Below are positions 3,451 through 39,594 of a DNA stretch of 45,181 nucleotides, in pieces. The DNA comes from Alphaproteobacteria bacterium (GTDB lineage Bacteria; Pseudomonadota; Alphaproteobacteria; Parvibaculales; Parvibaculaceae): contig JAJFGY010000198.1 in NCBI GenBank assembly GCA_021775935.1, positions 1-45,181 of the forward strand. Direction: 5' to 3'. A program made the translations under genes and the position numbers. Numbering within the stretch: position 1 is the stretch's first letter; the number at the start of each line of letters is the position of its first letter. The notes under the pieces were generated by a model, which made no database searches, was not told the DNA's origin, and saw only the letters and a list, made by a program, of their open reading frames with translations.

Positions 3451-5316
3451 TTACTCAGCCCCGGGTGCGTTCTGTGCTTTTGCGGGGTCGACCCACCATG
3501 TATCGATGACACCCCGGCTGTCGGGCATAGCGCCGCCACGGCCATAACGGGGGGCTTTTTCCGGCCGGGCAAACACATCCCAGAACGCAAGATTGTGCGC
3601 AGCCTTGTACCAATGGGGCACCCAATAGAAGCCAGCACGCAGCACCCGGTCGATGGCGCGGGCTGCCAGAACCTGTTCCTCTCGGGTTTTTGCCTCAATG
3701 ATCCTTTCCATCAACGCATCAACCACCGGGTCCTTGATGCCCGGCAGATTGAAACTGCCGGAGATATTCGCCGCCTCGGAACTCCAATAATTGTGGATCT
3801 CAACACCGGGTGTGGCCGACATGGAGAAACGCCGCGTCATGACATCGAAATCAAACGTCTTCACCCGTTCTTGGTACTCGGCGGAGTTCACCGGTTTGAT
3901 ATTGGTCTCTATGCCCAGTTGCTTGATGTTGGCTTGAAACGCCGCAATCACCCGCTCAAAGGTTGGGGAGTCATTGAGGAATTCTACACTGAGAGTCTCA
4001 CCTTCTGCATTGCGCCGCTTGCCGTCCTGAATGGTCCAGCCTGCTTCGTCCAGAAGCTTGCCGGCTCGAAGCAGCAGACGCCGATCTTTGCCCGAACCAT
4101 CAGACACGGGTGGTTCAATGGCTTCTTCAAAGACGCGAGGAGGAAGTTGATTGCGAAAGGGTTCAAGCAGCACCAGCTCTTCAGGCGAGGGCAGACCATT
4201 GGCGCGCATCTCCGAATTCTCAAAATAACTGCCGCTGCGCTGATAGAGATTGTGGAAATGATTGCGGTTCGTCCATTCAAAGTCGAAGGCCAGACCGAGC
4301 GCTTCGCGAACACGAACATCAGAAAACTGAGGACGGCGTGTATTCAAAAACCAACCCTGGGCGCCGGACGGTGTATCATCGCGCGTCGTGAGTTGCACGA
4401 CGCGTCCGTCTTCAATCGCGGGGAAATTATACTCTGTCGCCCAGACCTTTGAGGTGAACTCCTCGCGCAGCAGATATTCCCCGGCCTTGAAGGCTTCAAA
4501 CTGCGCTGTGCGGTCCCGATAGAACTCAAAGCGGATCGTGTCGAAGTTCCAGCGTCCCACATTCACATTAAGGTCCCGCGCCCAATAATCCTCGACCCGC
4601 TCATAGGAAACGAAACGCCCTTGCGCCAGTTCCTTGACGCGGTAGGGGCCACTCCCAAGCGGAGTCTCCAGTGTCGTTTCGTCAAACGCATGTTCCGTGT
4701 AGTAGGCCTTGGAGAAAATCGGCAGGCCTGTGATGAGGAGGGCGAGGTCCCGCGTCTGATTACCGGTGAATGTCACTTTCAGCGTTTGAGAGTTGAGTGC
4801 TTCTGCACTTGCCATTTCGCGAATGGTTTGTGAAATGAGGGGGTGGCCTTTCTCTTTCAGGAGCATCAGAGAGAAAGCGACATCTTCTGCAGTCAGCGGA
4901 CTGCCATCATGGAAGCGGGCTTCGGGGCGCAGCTCAAAAATAATGCTGTTGCCGTCTTCAGCAAGATCAGCGGTTTTCGCGACAAGGCCGTAGACCGCAT
5001 CCGGCTCATCACCGGACCGGGTCATCAGCGTGTCGAAGGTGAGCTCCGCGCCCATTGCACCATTTCCTTTGAGGATATAGCTGTTGAGGCTGTCAAAGGT
5101 GAGGGGGGATTGGTTGAGGATCCAGGTGGGCCCGATCTGACTGAACGTGCCACCTTTCGGTGCGTCCGGGTTCACATACGAGAAGTGAGGAAAGTCTTCT
5201 TCATAAAGGAGGTCGCCAAAGATCGACATGCCATGACGAGGCTCTGCGAGCGCGCTCCCGCAGGCCATTGCGAGAGAAAGACTTCCAGCAAGGGCGGCCG
5301 ACCAGATGCGCCGCAT
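3451..5316 (-). CDS. Extracellular solute-binding protein family 5, YejA-like (second copy)
   Basis: This is a periplasmic peptide-binding protein (SBP_bac_5) that delivers substrate to YejBE. It has 621 residues; E. coli YejA has about 604. A signal peptide is visible at residues 1-24 (LAGSLSLAMACGSALA before EPRHG). The mature part opens with the YejA hallmark HGMSIFGDLLY and YVNPDAPKGG. Later come LGSGPYRV, an RFEFYRDRTAQFEAFKAGEY region and LAFDFEWTN. The start ATG shares one base with the TGA of the upstream paralogue (TGATG), so the two binding proteins are translated as a coupled pair. It differs substantially from its neighbour, which argues for an old duplication with separate substrate ranges rather than a recent copy. 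Confidence 0.93.
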   Translation of the reverse strand: MRRIWSAALAGSLSLAMACGSALAEPRHGMSIFGDLLYEEDFPHFSYVNPDAPKGGTFSQIGPTWILNQSPLTFDSLNSYILKGNGAMGAELTFDTLMTRSGDEPDAVYGLVAKTADLAEDGNSIIFELRPEARFHDGSPLTAEDVAFSLMLLKEKGHPLISQTIREMASAEALNSQTLKVTFTGNQTRDLALLITGLPIFSKAYYTEHAFDETTLETPLGSGPYRVKELAQGRFVSYERVEDYWARDLNVNVGRWNFDTIRFEFYRDRTAQFEAFKAGEYLLREEFTSKVWATEYNFPAIEDGRVVQLTTRDDTPSGAQGWFLNTRRPQFSDVRVREALGLAFDFEWTNRNHFHNLYQRSGSYFENSEMRANGLPSPEELVLLEPFRNQLPPRVFEEAIEPPVSDGSGKDRRLLLRAGKLLDEAGWTIQDGKRRNAEGETLSVEFLNDSPTFERVIAAFQANIKQLGIETNIKPVNSAEYQERVKTFDFDVMTRRFSMSATPGVEIHNYWSSEAANISGSFNLPGIKDPVVDALMERIIEAKTREEQVLAARAIDRVLRAGFYWVPHWYKAAHNLAFWDVFARPEKAPRYGRGGAMPDSRGVIDTWWVDPAKAQNAPGAE

Positions 5317-7142
5317 CAGTTTGCGGCCTCATCGCCTGCATGCCACCACACAGAGGGAAAACCAGGATTGAAGGCAGGGGTTGGATCTGGATGTCCGATA
5401 TGCGACCAGACCGCAGCTCGTGTGAACGGGATATGCCATTGCGGCACAAGATAGTGCCGTGACAACAGAACCCGGTCGAGGGAGCGGCTCGCCGTAACGA
5501 GTGTCTCCCGGTCTTTGGCAAGAATGATCTCATCAATCAGTGCTTCAACGACAGGATCGCAAATGCCAATCACATTACGGCTGCCGTTTCGCTCCGCCGC
5601 TTCACAGCCCCAGAACTCCCGCTGCTCATTGCCCGGCGATAGTGACTGTGCGGCGGAATGAACAATCATGTCGAAATCGAAACCGTCTAGCCGGTTTTGA
5701 TATTGCGACGTGTCGACGACGCGAATGGTGCCAATGATGCCCAATTTCTTCAAGGATTGCAGATAGGGTTGTACAACGCGCTCGAATGTTGGTGAGACAA
5801 GCAGGAACTCGATTTCGAAAGCGTCGCCGCTTTCATTGTTGACCAATGCGCCGTCTGCATTGACCGACCATCCAGCCTCTTTCAGAAGTCTGGTTGCCGT
5901 GCGCAGGTTACGTCGGTTTTCACCGCTGCCATCGGTGACCGAGGTTTCAAAGACTTCCGTAAAGAGCGTCGTCGGCAGCTGATCACGAAAGGGTTCTAAG
6001 AGCGCGAGTTCTGCCCCTTCAGGCAAGCCGTTTGATGCAAGCTCCGAATTCTCAAAATAACTATCGGTCCGCGTATATTGCCCATAGAAGAGGGTCTTGT
6101 TCGCCCATTCAAAATCAAATGCGAGAGCGATGGCTTCACGGACGCGCGCGTCGGAGAACTTGCTGCGCCGCAAATTCATTGCAAATCCCTGCATCGGTTC
6201 CGGGTTGGCGGTGCGGAGTTCTTCCAACCGGACCCGTCCGTCCTTGACGGCAGGAAAATTGTAGCCCGTCGCCCAATCTTTGGCGGAGTTTTCAAACCGA
6301 ACGTCGATCTGTCCTCCCTTGAAGGCCTCAAGCGCAATCGTGCTGTCGCCGAAATAGTCAAAACGAACTTCATCGAAATTATGCGCCCCAATATTCACAT
6401 TGAGATTGGCGCCCCAATAGTCGCTAACGCGCTCATAGGTGATGGACGTCGGGGCATCGACATCCTTAACCCGATAGGGACCGCTGCCAAGCGGCGCATC
6501 AAGAGTGGTCGCATTGAAGTCACGGCTCTCCCAGTAATGTTTGGGCAGCACCGGCAGTTGACCGACTATTTGTGGGAGCTCGCGATTGCCCGAAACAGCG
6601 AAAGTAAATCTGACTTCCAGTGGCGAGAGCTTTTCGGCGAACTCAACGTCGGCATAATAGAATGCAATCGCAGGCGAGGTGACTTTGAGTGTCTCAAAGG
6701 TCCAGATCACGTCTTCAGGAGTTACACGGGTTCCATCATGCCATTTGGCTCCCGGGCGCAGCTTGAACGTCACGGATGAATAGTCATCAGGATGCGAAAC
6801 ACTTTCCGCCAGCAATCCATATTCGCTGGCAGGCTCGTCTTGGGCATCTGTCATCAGCGTCTCATATAGAAGCGTTGATATGCCCGTCGCCGCGCGCCCT
6901 TTCACAATGAAGGGGTTGAGGCTGTCAAAGCTGCCAATGCTGGCATAGCGCAGGGTGCCGCCTTTGGGTGCATCTGGGTTCACATAGTCGAAGCGTTCGA
7001 AATCCGCTGGGTATTTGAGCGACCCAAAGAGCGAGAGGCCATGCCTTTGCTCATCTTCGGCCATTGCGGGCGCTGTCCCAATCAACCCCCCGCCAACTAT
7101 CAGGGCCAATCCAGCAACTGCGAAACGTTCAATCCACGCCAA
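5316..7142 (-). CDS. yejA: Extracellular solute-binding protein family 5, YejA-like (first copy)
   Basis: This is the first gene of the peptide importer operon, encoding a 608-residue periplasmic binding protein. The signal peptide is at residues 1-28 (GGGLIGTAPAMA before EDEQRHG). The YejA signatures HGLSLFGSLKYPADF, YVNPDAPKGG, LGSGPYRV and LAFDFEWAN are all present. The start is a TTG codon at 7142. It is supported by GGGAG seven bases upstream and by the signal peptide that follows directly; no ATG or GTG lies nearby. It is co-directional with the cytochrome gene upstream but separated from it by a rho-independent terminator, so the operon should have its own promoter in 7143-7233. The substrate cannot be read from the sequence. 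Confidence 0.93.
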   Translation of the reverse strand: MAWIERFAVAGLALIVGGGLIGTAPAMAEDEQRHGLSLFGSLKYPADFERFDYVNPDAPKGGTLRYASIGSFDSLNPFIVKGRAATGISTLLYETLMTDAQDEPASEYGLLAESVSHPDDYSSVTFKLRPGAKWHDGTRVTPEDVIWTFETLKVTSPAIAFYYADVEFAEKLSPLEVRFTFAVSGNRELPQIVGQLPVLPKHYWESRDFNATTLDAPLGSGPYRVKDVDAPTSITYERVSDYWGANLNVNIGAHNFDEVRFDYFGDSTIALEAFKGGQIDVRFENSAKDWATGYNFPAVKDGRVRLEELRTANPEPMQGFAMNLRRSKFSDARVREAIALAFDFEWANKTLFYGQYTRTDSYFENSELASNGLPEGAELALLEPFRDQLPTTLFTEVFETSVTDGSGENRRNLRTATRLLKEAGWSVNADGALVNNESGDAFEIEFLLVSPTFERVVQPYLQSLKKLGIIGTIRVVDTSQYQNRLDGFDFDMIVHSAAQSLSPGNEQREFWGCEAAERNGSRNVIGICDPVVEALIDEIILAKDRETLVTASRSLDRVLLSRHYLVPQWHIPFTRAAVWSHIGHPDPTPAFNPGFPSVWWHAGDEAAN

Positions 7143-34904: not shown

Positions 34905-35825
34905 ATGGTTCTGACGGTGACGGAAAAACACGATCGACGGTTTGGTGGAACAAGATCCTCCCGGCGATCCGGTACGTTTGGGTTGCTCATTCTAGGGGCT
35001 ATCGCCTTAGTCTGGCTTTTGCCAATTCAAGGCGTGTTTGGCGTAACCCAGGTCCTCGCAGCAGACGCATGGACCAAATGGAGCGCGTATGAGGAGAGCT
35101 CGACTGTGACCATTGATCATTCTGATTGGCAGGCATTGTTGAAGGCGTATGTCGTACCTGGCGCCATTGGCGAGGCAAACAAGGTCGATTACGCTGCCCT
35201 GGCCGCAAGCGAGACCGATCGCGACAGATTGGAGCTCTACATAACCAGCCTTGAAGCTGTGGAAGTTGAGGCGCTCAACAAGAATGAACAGTTTGCCTTT
35301 TGGGCAAATCTCTATAACGCGGCGACTGTGCGGGTCGTGCTCGATCATTACCCCGTGAGCTCCATTCGCAAGATCAGCATTTCCCCGGGCTTTTTCTCAA
35401 CCGGGCCATGGGGGGCAAAGCTTGTGACGGTCGACGCGGAGCGTCTGACCCTCGACGATATTGAACATCGGATATTGCGCCCGATCTGGAAAGACCCTCG
35501 GGTCCATTACGCGGTGAACTGTGCCTCGATCGGCTGCCCTAATCTGCCCACCAAACCCTTTACCGGCAAAACGCTGGAAGCAGACCTGGAAGCAGCTGCA
35601 CGCGCCTACATTAACAGTCCGCGCGGCGCGACCTTCGAGGGAAGCGCTCTGCGTGTTTCCAAGATCTATGATTGGTACTCGGAAGATTTCGGAAAGGGCA
35701 CCGCTAATCTGATTGCGCATCTGCGATCTTATGCAGAGGGCGATCTGGCTGTTGCGCTGGAAAACACGACACGGGTGCAGGGATACGACTATGATTGGTC
35801 CCTCAACGATACCTCCGGCTCCTAA
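34905..35825 (+). CDS. DUF547 domain protein, membrane-anchored or exported
   Basis: This is a 306-residue protein of the DUF547 family (function unknown). Start ATG 34905 has a perfect AAAGGAGGT five bases upstream; the 13 upstream in-frame codons are rejected. A basic N-terminus leads to one hydrophobic segment (FGLLILGAIALVWLLPIQGV, about residues 26-45) that is either an anchor or a signal with a possible cut after VLAADA. The conserved domain includes FWANLYNAATVRVVLDHYP, SIRKI, DIEHRILRP and HYAVNCASIGCPNLPTKPF, with conserved Cys206 and Cys211. The placement suggests a periplasmic enzyme with a catalytic or redox cysteine, an inference. It is followed after 23 bases by a TVP38 gene and then an FAD oxidoreductase. 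Confidence 0.88.
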   Translation: MVLTVTEKHDRRFGGTRSSRRSGTFGLLILGAIALVWLLPIQGVFGVTQVLAADAWTKWSAYEESSTVTIDHSDWQALLKAYVVPGAIGEANKVDYAALAASETDRDRLELYITSLEAVEVEALNKNEQFAFWANLYNAATVRVVLDHYPVSSIRKISISPGFFSTGPWGAKLVTVDAERLTLDDIEHRILRPIWKDPRVHYAVNCASIGCPNLPTKPFTGKTLEADLEAAARAYINSPRGATFEGSALRVSKIYDWYSEDFGKGTANLIAHLRSYAEGDLAVALENTTRVQGYDYDWSLNDTSGS

Positions 35826-35848
35826 AGGGCCGATTAGAAGGAAATGAT

Positions 35849-36580
35849 ATGAGCGACGACAGTTCTGATGCAAAGCCATCCGGGTTCAGCCTCGGCAAAC
35901 TTGCGCCGTTGGCAATTCTGGCTGCGGGGCTCGCGGCCTTTTTTGCGCTCGATCTTGGGCAATATGTGACCCTTGATACGCTGAAAGAAAACCGGGAGGT
36001 CTTGCAGACCTTTGTCGCAGAAAATGCGGCCATTGCTGTCACCATCTATATGGGCGTCTACGCGCTCATGGTCGCGTTCTCATTGCCAGGGGCCCTAATT
36101 GCGACATTGACTGGCGGCTTTCTTTTCGGAACGATCTTTGGTGGATTGGCAACCGTGGTCGCAGCGACAATTGGCGCAACCATCGTTTTCCTGATCGCTA
36201 AGACCGCACTAGGTGATGCGCTTCGCGCGAAAGCAGGACCCGGCATCCTGAAAATGGAAGCTGGATTTCAGAAAAACGCCTTCTCCTATTTACTGGTACT
36301 GCGCCTGGTGCCGCTCTTCCCCTTCTTCCTGGTGAACTTAGCGCCCGCCTTTTTGGGTGTGAAACTACGCACCTTCATTGTCGCGACATTCTTTGGCATC
36401 ATTCCCGGCACGTTCGTCTTTGCCAGTGTTGGCAACGGATTGGGTGCGATCTTCGACAAGGGGGGTGAGCCCGATCTCGGTATCATCTTTCAGCCAGAAG
36501 TGCTGGGACCCATCCTGGCTCTCGCTGCTCTGTCGCTGGTGCCGGTCATCTACAAACGATTTTCAAAACAAGACGCATAA
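35849..36580 (+). CDS. TVP38/TMEM64 (SNARE-associated, DedA-like) membrane protein
   Basis: This is a 243-residue inner-membrane protein of the TVP38/TMEM64 family, related to DedA. Start ATG 35849 has GAAGG upstream; an earlier in-frame codon overlaps the DUF547 gene and is rejected. About six hydrophobic segments are visible, beginning LAPLAILAAGLAAFFALDLG. The family signature is clear: VAFSLPGALIATLTGGFLFG in the first half, then the re-entrant region LRLVPLFPFFLVNLAPAFLG with its Arg and Pro, and FFGIIPGTFVFASVG. Members have been linked to lipid or lipid-carrier transport across membranes. It lies between a DUF547 gene and an FAD-dependent disulfide oxidoreductase, a combination that suggests a shared membrane redox task. 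Confidence 0.93.
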   Translation: MSDDSSDAKPSGFSLGKLAPLAILAAGLAAFFALDLGQYVTLDTLKENREVLQTFVAENAAIAVTIYMGVYALMVAFSLPGALIATLTGGFLFGTIFGGLATVVAATIGATIVFLIAKTALGDALRAKAGPGILKMEAGFQKNAFSYLLVLRLVPLFPFFLVNLAPAFLGVKLRTFIVATFFGIIPGTFVFASVGNGLGAIFDKGGEPDLGIIFQPEVLGPILALAALSLVPVIYKRFSKQDA

Positions 36581-36612
36581 AGCACCTCTATCTGGGAGTG
36601 TGAGGAAACAAT

Positions 36613-38037
36613 ATGAGCGATATTATCGAAGCAGATATTTGTGTCATCGGTGGTGGTTCCGGCGGCCTGTCAGTTGCAGCAGGCGCTGTGCAAATGGGTG
36701 CGAAAGTTGTGCTCATCGAAAAAGGCAAAATGGGTGGTGATTGTCTGAACTATGGTTGTGTCCCATCAAAAGCATTGATCGCGGCGGGCAAGCATGCCCA
36801 TGCCATGGGCGACGGCGAAATCTTTGGCGTGAAGCCTCAGCCGTTGGAAGTTGATTTTGGTCGTGTCCACGATCATGTGCATGAAGTCATTGCAGGCATT
36901 GCGCCCGTCGACAGTGTTGAGCGGTTTGAAGGTCTGGGCGTCCAGGTCATTCAGGCAGCAGCAAGATTTGCAAGTCCGCAAACGGTTGAGGCAGGTGGAC
37001 AGATTATCAAGGCGCGTCGGTTTGTTGTGGCGACAGGCTCATCACCTGCAGTGCCTCCTATCCCTGGGCTCGACACGGTTCCCTTTCTTACCAATGAAAC
37101 CATGTTCGACCTGAAAGAGCGCCCCGAGCATTTGATCATTGTCGGTGGCGGCCCCATCGGCATGGAGCTCGCGCAGGCGCATCGTCGTCTTGGCGCCAAG
37201 GTGACGGTGCTTGAAGGCCTGAAGGCGCTGGGCAAAGATGATCCGGAGCTCACAGCGCTCGTGCTCGACGCGATCCGTGAAGACGGAGTTGAGATTCGCG
37301 AAGGTGCAAAAGTAACCTCCGTCGCAAAAGACGGCGCGGGTGTGACGGTCTCCATCGAAACAGAAGGTGGCAATGAAACTGTCTCCGGGTCGCACCTGCT
37401 GCTGGCAGTTGGTCGGCGTCCCAATGTCGAAGGGCTCGACCTTGAGAATGCGGGCATCAAATATGAACGCACCGGCATCAAGGTCGATGCGCGCCTTAGA
37501 ACAACCAACAAGAAAATCTTTGCGATCGGCGATGTGTCCGGCGGTCTCCAGTTCACCCATGTCGCGGGCTACCATGCTGGCATTGTGATCAGGAATATCC
37601 TTTTCCGGATTCCCGCTAAGGCAGATCATTCAGCCATTCCGTGGGCGACGTACACGGACCCGGAACTTGCCCATGTGGGGGAGACGGAAGAGGAAGCCCG
37701 CAAGAGGCACGGAAAGATCGAAGTGCTTCGGTGGCCGCTGGCTGAAAATGATCGGGCGCAGGCTGAGCGGCGCACCCGCGGATTGGTCAAAGTGGTGACA
37801 GATAGTCATGGCCGTATTCTGGGGGCGAGCATCGTTGGGCCTCATGCCGGCGATCTGCTGCAACCCTGGGTTCTGGCAAAGTCACAAGGCATGAAAATTG
37901 GGGCAATGGCAGGCATGGTCTCGCCTTATCCAACCCTGGGCGAAATCAGCAAGCGCGCCGCCGGTTCTTACTACACACCAACGCTCTTTAGCTGGAAAAC
38001 CAGAGCAATTGTGAAGTTCCTTGGCCTATTCGGGTAG
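36613..38037 (+). CDS. FAD-dependent pyridine nucleotide-disulfide oxidoreductase (MerA/Lpd-like)
   Basis: This is a 474-residue flavoprotein of the class I disulfide reductase fold. The FAD-binding motif is GGGSGGLSVAAGAVQMGA (from residue 13). The redox-active pair is Cys44/Cys49 in GGDCLNYGCVPSK. The NAD(P)H site is IIVGGGPIGMELAQAHRRLG, and the second FAD motif is IFAIGDVSGG. The dimerisation domain is complete, but the catalytic His of dihydrolipoamide dehydrogenase and glutathione reductase is a Tyr: Tyr439 in SPYPTLGE, with Glu444 kept. It is therefore not a normal Lpd, and there are no 2-oxoacid dehydrogenase genes nearby. It also lacks an N-terminal heavy-metal domain, so mercuric reductase is unproven. 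GAGGA precedes ATG 36613. It probably works with the TVP38 and DUF547 products. Confidence 0.9.
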   Translation: MSDIIEADICVIGGGSGGLSVAAGAVQMGAKVVLIEKGKMGGDCLNYGCVPSKALIAAGKHAHAMGDGEIFGVKPQPLEVDFGRVHDHVHEVIAGIAPVDSVERFEGLGVQVIQAAARFASPQTVEAGGQIIKARRFVVATGSSPAVPPIPGLDTVPFLTNETMFDLKERPEHLIIVGGGPIGMELAQAHRRLGAKVTVLEGLKALGKDDPELTALVLDAIREDGVEIREGAKVTSVAKDGAGVTVSIETEGGNETVSGSHLLLAVGRRPNVEGLDLENAGIKYERTGIKVDARLRTTNKKIFAIGDVSGGLQFTHVAGYHAGIVIRNILFRIPAKADHSAIPWATYTDPELAHVGETEEEARKRHGKIEVLRWPLAENDRAQAERRTRGLVKVVTDSHGRILGASIVGPHAGDLLQPWVLAKSQGMKIGAMAGMVSPYPTLGEISKRAAGSYYTPTLFSWKTRAIVKFLGLFG

Positions 38038-38100
38038 GGGGTCTTTCCGCTATAGTTCGGGCCTGCGCGCCAAGGGTGCGTTTTGGAGAACAGGCGGAAA

Positions 38101-39594
38101 ATGGATCGCGAGATCGATGAAGTAACAGCTGTTGATACCGTGGGTGAGCCGCGCGCTGCAGCTGCGCCTGCAGCCCGATCAATGGATCGTCTCGTGGGGC
38201 CTCTGCGCCGCAGCTTGTCGGCCCAGCTTCTTGTTCTGACCGTTCTCTTTGTGATGCTGGCAGAAGTTCTGATCTATGTGCCGTCGTTGTCCAATTTTCG
38301 CGATAGCTGGATCAAACAGAGGCTGGCACGGGCCCAGATCGCGACCCTTGCTCTGGAAGCAACACCCGACAATATGGTTGCGAGCGCCCTGCGCGATGAG
38401 CTTCTGGAAAATGCTGAAGCCTACGCTGTCGTGCTTCATAGAGACGCCGCGCGCCGCCTGATTTTGCGCGACGACATGCCGCCCGCCATTGATGCAACCT
38501 ATGATCTGCGGGGGGCCACCTTCCTCGATATCGTCATGGATATGTTCGATTGCCTGATGGCGGATGATGGCCGCATCATTCGGGTGATCGGTGAGCCGCG
38601 CTTTGAGGGGGGCGACTTCATTGAAATCGTGTTCGATGAGACACCGCTGCGACAGGCCATGTTGGATTTTTCGACCAATATTCTGAACCTCTCAATCCTG
38701 ATTTCTGTCATTACGGCGTCGCTGGTTTTCTTCGCGCTGAACTTCTTTCTGGTGCGTCCCATGCGCCGCATCACCGAAAATATGGTGGCCTTCAGCCAAA
38801 ACCCCGATGACGCGTCTCGCGTGATTGACCCCTCAACACGGCTAGATGAAATTGGTGTTGCCGAACGGGAACTCGCTGACCTGCAGACCCAGGTCCGCTC
38901 TACACTGAACCAGCAGGCACGCCTCGCCTCGCTCGGAACCGCCATCAGCAAGATCAACCATGACCTCAGAAATATTCTGGCCAGTACTCAGCTGATTTCA
39001 GACCGGCTCGTCGGTGTAGACGATCCAACAGTTCAAAGCCTCGCCCCACGTCTTTTTGCCTCGATCGACCGAGCCATTCAACTTTGTACGAACACGTTGA
39101 AGTTCGGTAGCAGTGAAGAAGAACCGCCGATGAGGCGCGCTGTCGACTTGGCATCGCTCGCAGCAGAAGCCATGGAGGCAATTGGCCTGGAAGAGGACAG
39201 TCCCGTTTCTGTGCTGCTGGAAATTGAAGCGGGAACAGAAGTGGATGCCGATCCCGATCACCTTTTTCGCGTGTTGCTCAATCTTGGCAGAAACGCTGCC
39301 CAGGCAATGGAAGCTGGTGGCGAGATCATTGTGCGTGCAAATGCGACCCATGAGAGCGTCATAATTGAGGTGGCAGATACAGGGCCTGGTATTCCCGATG
39401 TCGCTCGCGAGCGTCTCTTCCAACCTTTTGGAGGGACGACGCGTCAGGGAGGGACAGGGTTGGGCCTTGCCATTTCAGCGGACCTCGTTCGAGCTCATGG
39501 CGGCACACTGGAACTTGTTGAGACAGGTCCCACTGGTACTGTCTTCAGAATATGCATACCTCATCGCAAGGAAGTTGTCCGAGCGGCGCAGTGA
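38101..39594 (+). CDS. Membrane sensor histidine kinase (HAMP), orphan
   Basis: This is a 497-residue sensor kinase. The first helix is SAQLLVLTVLFVMLAEVLIY (about residues 41-60). The periplasmic sensor domain spans roughly residues 65-195. A second helix (LSILISVITASLVFFALNFF) leads into a HAMP domain from VRPMRRITENMVAFSQNPDD. The phosphoacceptor is His287 in SKINHDLRN. The ATPase domain has an N-box LLNLGRNAAQAME, then DTGPGIP and GGTGLGLAIS. The start is ATG 38101, with AGGCGG just upstream; a TTG at 38083 is less likely. No response regulator gene is adjacent, so its partner is elsewhere. It follows the oxidoreductase gene by about 60 bases and may sense the state of that membrane system; this is inference. 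Confidence 0.92.
   Translation: MDREIDEVTAVDTVGEPRAAAAPAARSMDRLVGPLRRSLSAQLLVLTVLFVMLAEVLIYVPSLSNFRDSWIKQRLARAQIATLALEATPDNMVASALRDELLENAEAYAVVLHRDAARRLILRDDMPPAIDATYDLRGATFLDIVMDMFDCLMADDGRIIRVIGEPRFEGGDFIEIVFDETPLRQAMLDFSTNILNLSILISVITASLVFFALNFFLVRPMRRITENMVAFSQNPDDASRVIDPSTRLDEIGVAERELADLQTQVRSTLNQQARLASLGTAISKINHDLRNILASTQLISDRLVGVDDPTVQSLAPRLFASIDRAIQLCTNTLKFGSSEEEPPMRRAVDLASLAAEAMEAIGLEEDSPVSVLLEIEAGTEVDADPDHLFRVLLNLGRNAAQAMEAGGEIIVRANATHESVIIEVADTGPGIPDVARERLFQPFGGTTRQGGTGLGLAISADLVRAHGGTLELVETGPTGTVFRICIPHRKEVVRAAQ

Follow-up and report, generated by a model that had tools for sequence, protein, structure and literature searches.

The D-V-F-K locus

The stretch of DNA analysed here (the window; 45,181 nucleotides, contig JAJFGY010000198.1 of GenBank assembly GCA_021775935.1, Alphaproteobacteria bacterium) carries four consecutive genes at positions 34,905 to 39,594, referred to below as D, V, F and K.

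34905-35825, + strand: D, predicted exported DUF547 protein, 306 amino acids (PF04784 match, ATG at 34905)
35849-36580, + strand: V, VTT/TVP38 (DedA superfamily) membrane protein, 243 amino acids (PF09335 match)
36613-38037, + strand: F, predicted class I flavoprotein disulfide oxidoreductase, 474 amino acids (PF07992 and PF02852 matches)
38101-39594, + strand: K, membrane histidine kinase, approximately 497 amino acids from its ATG (PF02518 match)

All four genes lie on one strand and are separated by 23 bases (D-V), 32 bases (V-F) and 63 bases (F-K). Purine-rich stretches resembling ribosome sites are found 5' of the starts of D (aaaggagg), V (agaagga) and F (tgagga). The start of K is most likely the ATG at 38101; an in-frame TTG is also present at 38083. 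The genes rnpA and yidC are located upstream of D in divergent orientation, and a glucokinase gene is located downstream of K. Promoter and terminator scans at the cluster gave matches only at chance level.

An initial annotation of this DNA had described three same-direction genes with gaps of 23 and 32 bases and a ribosome site before each, and was accurate in coordinates, strand and spacing. It had also treated D, V and F as the unit, with the kinase merely beside them. This was overturned by the survey reported here, in which V, F and K form the constant core and D is a facultative, lineage-specific partner.

Genome sample and locus collections

The sample comprised 240 genomes of the window's class (taken as Alphaproteobacteria), searched with the D, K and F proteins of the window. 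Cut-offs were chosen by the analysts (E of 1e-40 for K and 1e-110 for F). Searches with the K family mostly used a reference sequence starting one codon after the ATG at 38101. In most genomes no more than six to eleven candidates were scored for K, F and the control family TIGR04283, so absences of these three are upper bounds. The assembly of the window genome (G000) is 88% complete.

Locus collections consisted of 80 stretches around D and 80 around F, numbered with the prefix L. There were 90 DUF547 places in all; those lying beyond the stretches and the window were G224:C317, G125, G044 and the second copy in the window genome, the last of which was examined separately (L002). L040 is a duplicate of L125 and was excluded from the gap, D-tree, gene-order and rnpA/yidC-region counts. 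Alignment A1 was prepared without L113 and L125. There were 51 F places that had no K or D in the vicinity; 25 of them were fetched and 26 left out.

Recurrence of the gene pairs

D was found in 68 genomes, K in 112 and F in 121. Both F and K were present in 97 genomes, F only in 24, K only in 15 and neither in 104. F and K lay no more than 5 kb apart in 71 of the 97 genomes holding both, and in all 71 they were on the same strand; random placement in genomes of 3.5 and 1.5 Mb would yield 0.35-0.83 such cases. Of the 64 genomes holding both D and F, 18 had the two within 5 kb of each other (expected 0.32-0.75); for D and K the figure was 20 of 60 (expected 0.28-0.66), on one strand in 19 of the 20. 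As a control, the TIGR04283 glycosyltransferase family (present in 94 of the 240 genomes) was examined with a limit of 4 kb and was near F in 1/77 and near K in 0/75 genomes with both.

The neighbourhood survey proposed with the initial annotation therefore supports part of its claim. D lies near F far above expectation, so DUF547, V and F are not random neighbours; the core that emerges is V-F-K and not D-V-F. D joins in 18/64 genomes and changes position, which marks it as the facultative member. K, seemingly accidental in the window, is among the most constant parts. It is also restricted to the window's class: K homologues at E ≤ 1e-40 were found in 49 of 249 genomes drawn phylum-wide, and 49/49 belonged to that class.

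Gene order and chromosomal place

F loci, the window included, numbered 99, and K was downstream of F in 72. Among these 72 loci, V immediately preceded F in 65; of the rest, 3 were at a contig edge and in 4 V was not found. The initial annotation had described TVP38 proteins and such oxidoreductases as frequent neighbours. Since 26 of the 51 F places lacking both K and D in their surroundings were left out, the K share in 72/99 is biased upward, and the unbiased figure is the 71/97 count given above. Of the 27 F loci without K, 9 had V upstream of F and 8 had it downstream; in the other 10 no V was found.

The median V-F gap was 7 bases (57 loci) and the median F-K gap 39.5 bases (70 loci). 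Reading frames overlapped between V and F in 24 loci and between F and K in 9; these frames are possibly over-long at the 5' end. V, F and K stood in that order in 17 of the 80 named D loci, including those of Parvibaculum, Hyphomicrobium, Stappia and Henriciella. L208 and L254 are examples of this locus type. Where D is linked, it mostly lies before V; it follows K in L053 and L104, and in 4 of the 80 named loci (L210, L215, L216 and L252) it pairs with K in the absence of V-F.

The genes yidC, engB, argB and rnpA were recurrent neighbours. Location in the rnpA/yidC/argB region was assessed for the 56 V-F-K loci in which 4.5 kb or more of upstream sequence was available. Clustering left 11 loci unassigned, of which a direct search recovered six.

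The flavoenzyme F

F scored 212.4 bits against PF07992 and 94.3 bits against PF02852. The redox pair C44-x4-C49 is canonical, and its cysteines are kept in 98-99% of 83 sequences. From these FAD/NAD (flavin and nicotinamide adenine dinucleotide) and dimerisation domains, together with the Cys-x4-Cys motif, F is classed as a class I flavoprotein disulfide oxidoreductase. Where such enzymes usually carry the His-Glu pair of the partner subunit, F has Tyr439 and Glu444. Tyr439 is present in 82/83 aligned F sequences (window included) and is aligned with a Tyr of mercuric reductase and with the His of lipoamide dehydrogenase. The active site had been called altered in the initial annotation; this holds for the partner-subunit His, replaced by Tyr439, and not for the redox cysteine pair, which is intact. 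Glu201 in the NAD domain (75/83 sequences) suggests, by the customary rule, a preference for NADH rather than NADPH. A basic, hydrophobic C-terminal tail is conserved among F sequences and might touch the membrane.

F fell below the curated cut-offs of three families: TIGR02053 (MerA; 388.8 against 454.45 bits), TIGR01350 (dihydrolipoyl dehydrogenase; 369.5 against 408.8 bits) and NF004991 (FAD-containing oxidoreductase; 474.8 against 620 bits). The best solved-structure match by sequence was the mercuric reductase 5x1y (286 bits). F shares with MerA the Cys-x4-Cys motif and the dimer-interface Tyr, but lacks MerA's C-terminal vicinal cysteine pair, which is the Hg-loading pair of that enzyme: the last 30 residues of the window F hold no cysteine, and no such pair was found in 30 tails examined. 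F was accordingly rejected as a mercuric reductase on the TIGR02053 score and the missing pair. With dihydrolipoyl dehydrogenase F shares the Cys-x4-Cys motif and the Glu that lipoamide dehydrogenase carries in its NAD site, but not the catalytic His of the His-Glu pair, whose place is taken by Tyr439.

The TVP38/DedA protein V

The initial assignment of V to the TVP38/DedA-type membrane proteins is confirmed by its PF09335 score of 74.6 bits (cut-off 33.9). A conserved motif, R-x2-P-x2-PF-x3-N, is present. The first re-entrant region, YMGVYALMVAFSLPGALIATLTGGFLFG, contains no D or E residue (the helix was placed by eye), and in this respect V fits the description of COG0398 given by Todor et al. 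(2023, PMC10127716). The human lipid scramblases TMEM41B and VMP1 are related to the bacterial TVP38-type proteins. COG0398 DedAs have been proposed as possible phospholipid scramblases; for a V of this kind the undecaprenyl-phosphate carrier is regarded as less likely (PMC10127716). In Caulobacter crescentus and Dinoroseobacter shibae, COG0398 DedAs are reportedly essential (PMC10127716).

The commonest fusion partner of COG0398 DedAs is a protein with PF07992 and PF02852 domains (PMC10127716), so a partnership of V with F is already known. The fusions have the same VTT motif type and flavoenzyme domains as V and F. Here, in contrast, the genes are separate and are accompanied by a class-specific kinase and an optional DUF547 protein, neither of which appears in the portion of PMC10127716 drawn on. 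No paper was found that reports K or DUF547 in a V-F setting in its title or abstract; this literature search covered sources outside subscription, and the kinase may have been described under a locus name.

The sensor kinase K

K scored 84.8 bits against PF02518 (cut-off 26.4) and gave no HisKA match in Pfam. The phospho-acceptor is H287 (H293 if numbered from the TTG). In 71 sequences this residue had a conservation of 1.0, as did the two Asn and the Asp of the N and G boxes, and the glycines were kept too. The structural model was of moderate quality, with a mean predicted local distance difference test (pLDDT) score of 79.7 and a predicted template modelling (pTM) score of 0.45. It places an extracytoplasmic alpha/beta domain of approximately 120 residues between two membrane helices (judged by eye). 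Fold-search matches spanned residues 275-490 only. The kinase core was closest to ZraS (best Z 21.7, 199 residues aligned, root-mean-square deviation (rmsd) 14.6) and also matched HK853 (Z 21.3, 210 residues, rmsd 4.8).

The kinase had been described as lacking a response regulator, and no receiver domain (PF00072) was detected on the window contig; the window genome as a whole contains 37 matches. Same-strand genes downstream of K were listed (60), and 34 were aligned and scanned. A response regulator hidden downstream of K was rejected, as none was listed among these 34. K shares the HATPase_c domain, the H, N and G boxes and the kinase core fold with the two-component kinases ZraS and AtoS, but differs in having no HisKA match, no neighbouring response regulator and an extracytoplasmic domain of its own.

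A methyltransferase gene was found directly after K in 15/34 scanned loci (e.g. L037, L070, L115 and L148), at the place held by glucokinase in the window. In some loci it overlaps K by 4 bases. The products were trans-aconitate 2-methyltransferase-like in the four cases checked, yet scored below the family cut-off.

The DUF547 protein D

D scored 87.4 bits against PF04784 (cut-off 27) and has a signal-peptide-like N-terminal stretch (by eye). The cysteine pair C206/C211 is invariant in 24/24 aligned sequences, and H201, C206 and C211 are conserved within the motif NCASxxCP. The earlier description of D as an exported DUF547 protein with paired cysteines therefore stands, export being predicted. 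An AlphaFold2 model of residues 56-306 was very confident (mean pLDDT 97.0, pTM 0.93). Foldseek searches with this model found nothing at E ≤ 0.001 in either the Protein Data Bank or a viral library, and a profile search returned no solved chain. The best hit on a second look was a weak match to an unrelated chain (Z 5.4, 92 residues, rmsd 4.2), so no fold is claimed. Among the titles and abstract openings of papers mentioning DUF547 in the literature searched, none suggests work on the function of a bacterial DUF547 protein.

DUF547 genes occur in tandem as two copies in L080 and three in L105, and one long frame in L064 holds two matches. The second DUF547 gene of the window genome (L002:1183-2809; contig C76, approximately 4330-5960) converges with an adjoining TIGR04283 glycosyltransferase gene (196 bits, cut-off 182), with DUF3047-like and Coq4-like genes beside it (by eye). 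In a Spirochaetales-labelled metagenome-assembled genome (MAG; L243:1073-9156), one strand carries F, DUF547, a CDP-alcohol phosphatidyltransferase-like gene and an ATP-binding cassette (ABC) transporter that has a PRK11622-type binding protein, and the opposite strand carries VTT. This arrangement is reminiscent of the E. coli ydjXYZ-ynjABCDEF genes. In a Deltaproteobacteria-labelled MAG (L224:992-6755), DUF547, an ArsM-like gene, the arsenosugar radical SAM protein ArsS (444 bits), VTT and an FAD oxidoreductase form one run, a cluster of arsenosugar type in which the D, V and F families of the window all occur.

Loci holding ArsS (TIGR04167), TIGR04282 and TIGR04283 were also considered. ArsS was found in 2/240 class genomes and gave no match in the window genome, at 88% completeness. 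Fetched ArsS loci outside the class (20 of 115 places; L279-L298) contained an F homologue in 9/20, a V homologue in 2/20 and a D homologue in 2/20. The V, F and D families thus meet in more than one setting.

Weighing of explanations

V-F-K, with D as an optional member, probably constitutes one functional unit. Several observations weigh against this. K is missing from 27/99 F loci and stands apart from F in 26/97 genomes holding both. The presence of K is associated with that of F in raw counts, without correction for kinship. Most V-F-K loci have no D, and on a tree of 84 D proteins the linked state is dispersed, with at least 13 changes, only 2 of them forced by well-supported branches. 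No response regulator for K was found on the window contig, and 51/56 V-F-K loci adjoin rnpA, yidC or argB, with 5/56 elsewhere.

The last figure, together with the recurrence of yidC, engB, argB and rnpA as neighbours, favours inherited synteny, in which a stable rnpA/yidC region keeps together three genes of unrelated function. Inherited gene order at this stable place does explain part of the conservation of V-F-K. As the sole cause it is rather unlikely: V-F-K stays together at the five loci outside the region, the spacing is operon-like with many overlaps and always on a single strand, V and F are fused in other bacteria (PMC10127716), and D-K pairs occur without V-F. Given these moved loci, overlapping frames and known fusions, inherited place seems not to account for all of it. 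It is less likely still that D, V and F form the unit, with F feeding a membrane thiol-redox or carrier-lipid system and K incidental. The three genes are contiguous with small gaps in the window, D is near F above expectation, and L260 and L261 (the latter at a contig end) hold D-V-F without K after it; the share of genomes with K near F nonetheless exceeds that with D near F (71/97 against 18/64).

Metal detoxification, with F as a mercuric-reductase-type enzyme and K as a metal sensor, is comparably improbable. The 5x1y match and the Tyr at the same aligned place speak for it, and the TIGR02053 score and the missing C-terminal cysteine pair speak against it. An accessory role in an arsenosugar-type pathway is supported outside the class, where some arsenosugar loci carry V, F or DUF547 homologues adjoining ArsS, and by the TIGR04283 gene beside the second DUF547 of the window genome. 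For the window genome this role was rejected and is very improbable indeed: ArsS is absent (missing parts of the assembly aside) and is lacking in 238/240 class genomes, so the arsenosugar pathway is not what the window encodes. K is likewise unlinked to these loci, lying near TIGR04283 in 0/75 genomes with both and F in 1/77.

For V-F-K as a functional unit, a mechanism can be proposed that, taken as a whole, has at best an even chance of being correct. V-F-K would be an ancestral operon of Alphaproteobacteria, and in the lineage of the window D would have joined its 5' end. Through its extracytoplasmic domain K may read a condition of the envelope, and it would then phosphorylate a response regulator encoded elsewhere. 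V would fall within the DedA subfamily to which phospholipid scrambling is ascribed. F may be a cytoplasmic NADH-dependent disulfide reductase that its basic tail keeps at the membrane, reducing a thiol, metal or lipid-linked substrate that it handles jointly with V. D would act on the periplasmic side.

Biological meaning

A more specific form of this proposal is offered tentatively and is considered unlikely in full. It is a dedicated, class-specific signalling and repair system in which K would sense a lipid or thiol-redox state at the inner membrane's outer face, V would move the lipid, F would reduce the lipid or its carrier on the inner face with NADH, and exported D would handle the same molecule outside. 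To our knowledge, no sensor is known for any bacterial TVP38-type protein. The V-F link has been published (PMC10127716); by title or abstract, no paper was found for K or DUF547 in this setting. A conserved flavoenzyme and kinase beside a TVP38-type protein make the signal of K, the output of K and the substrate of F testable, and DUF547 is now placed in a concrete gene setting.

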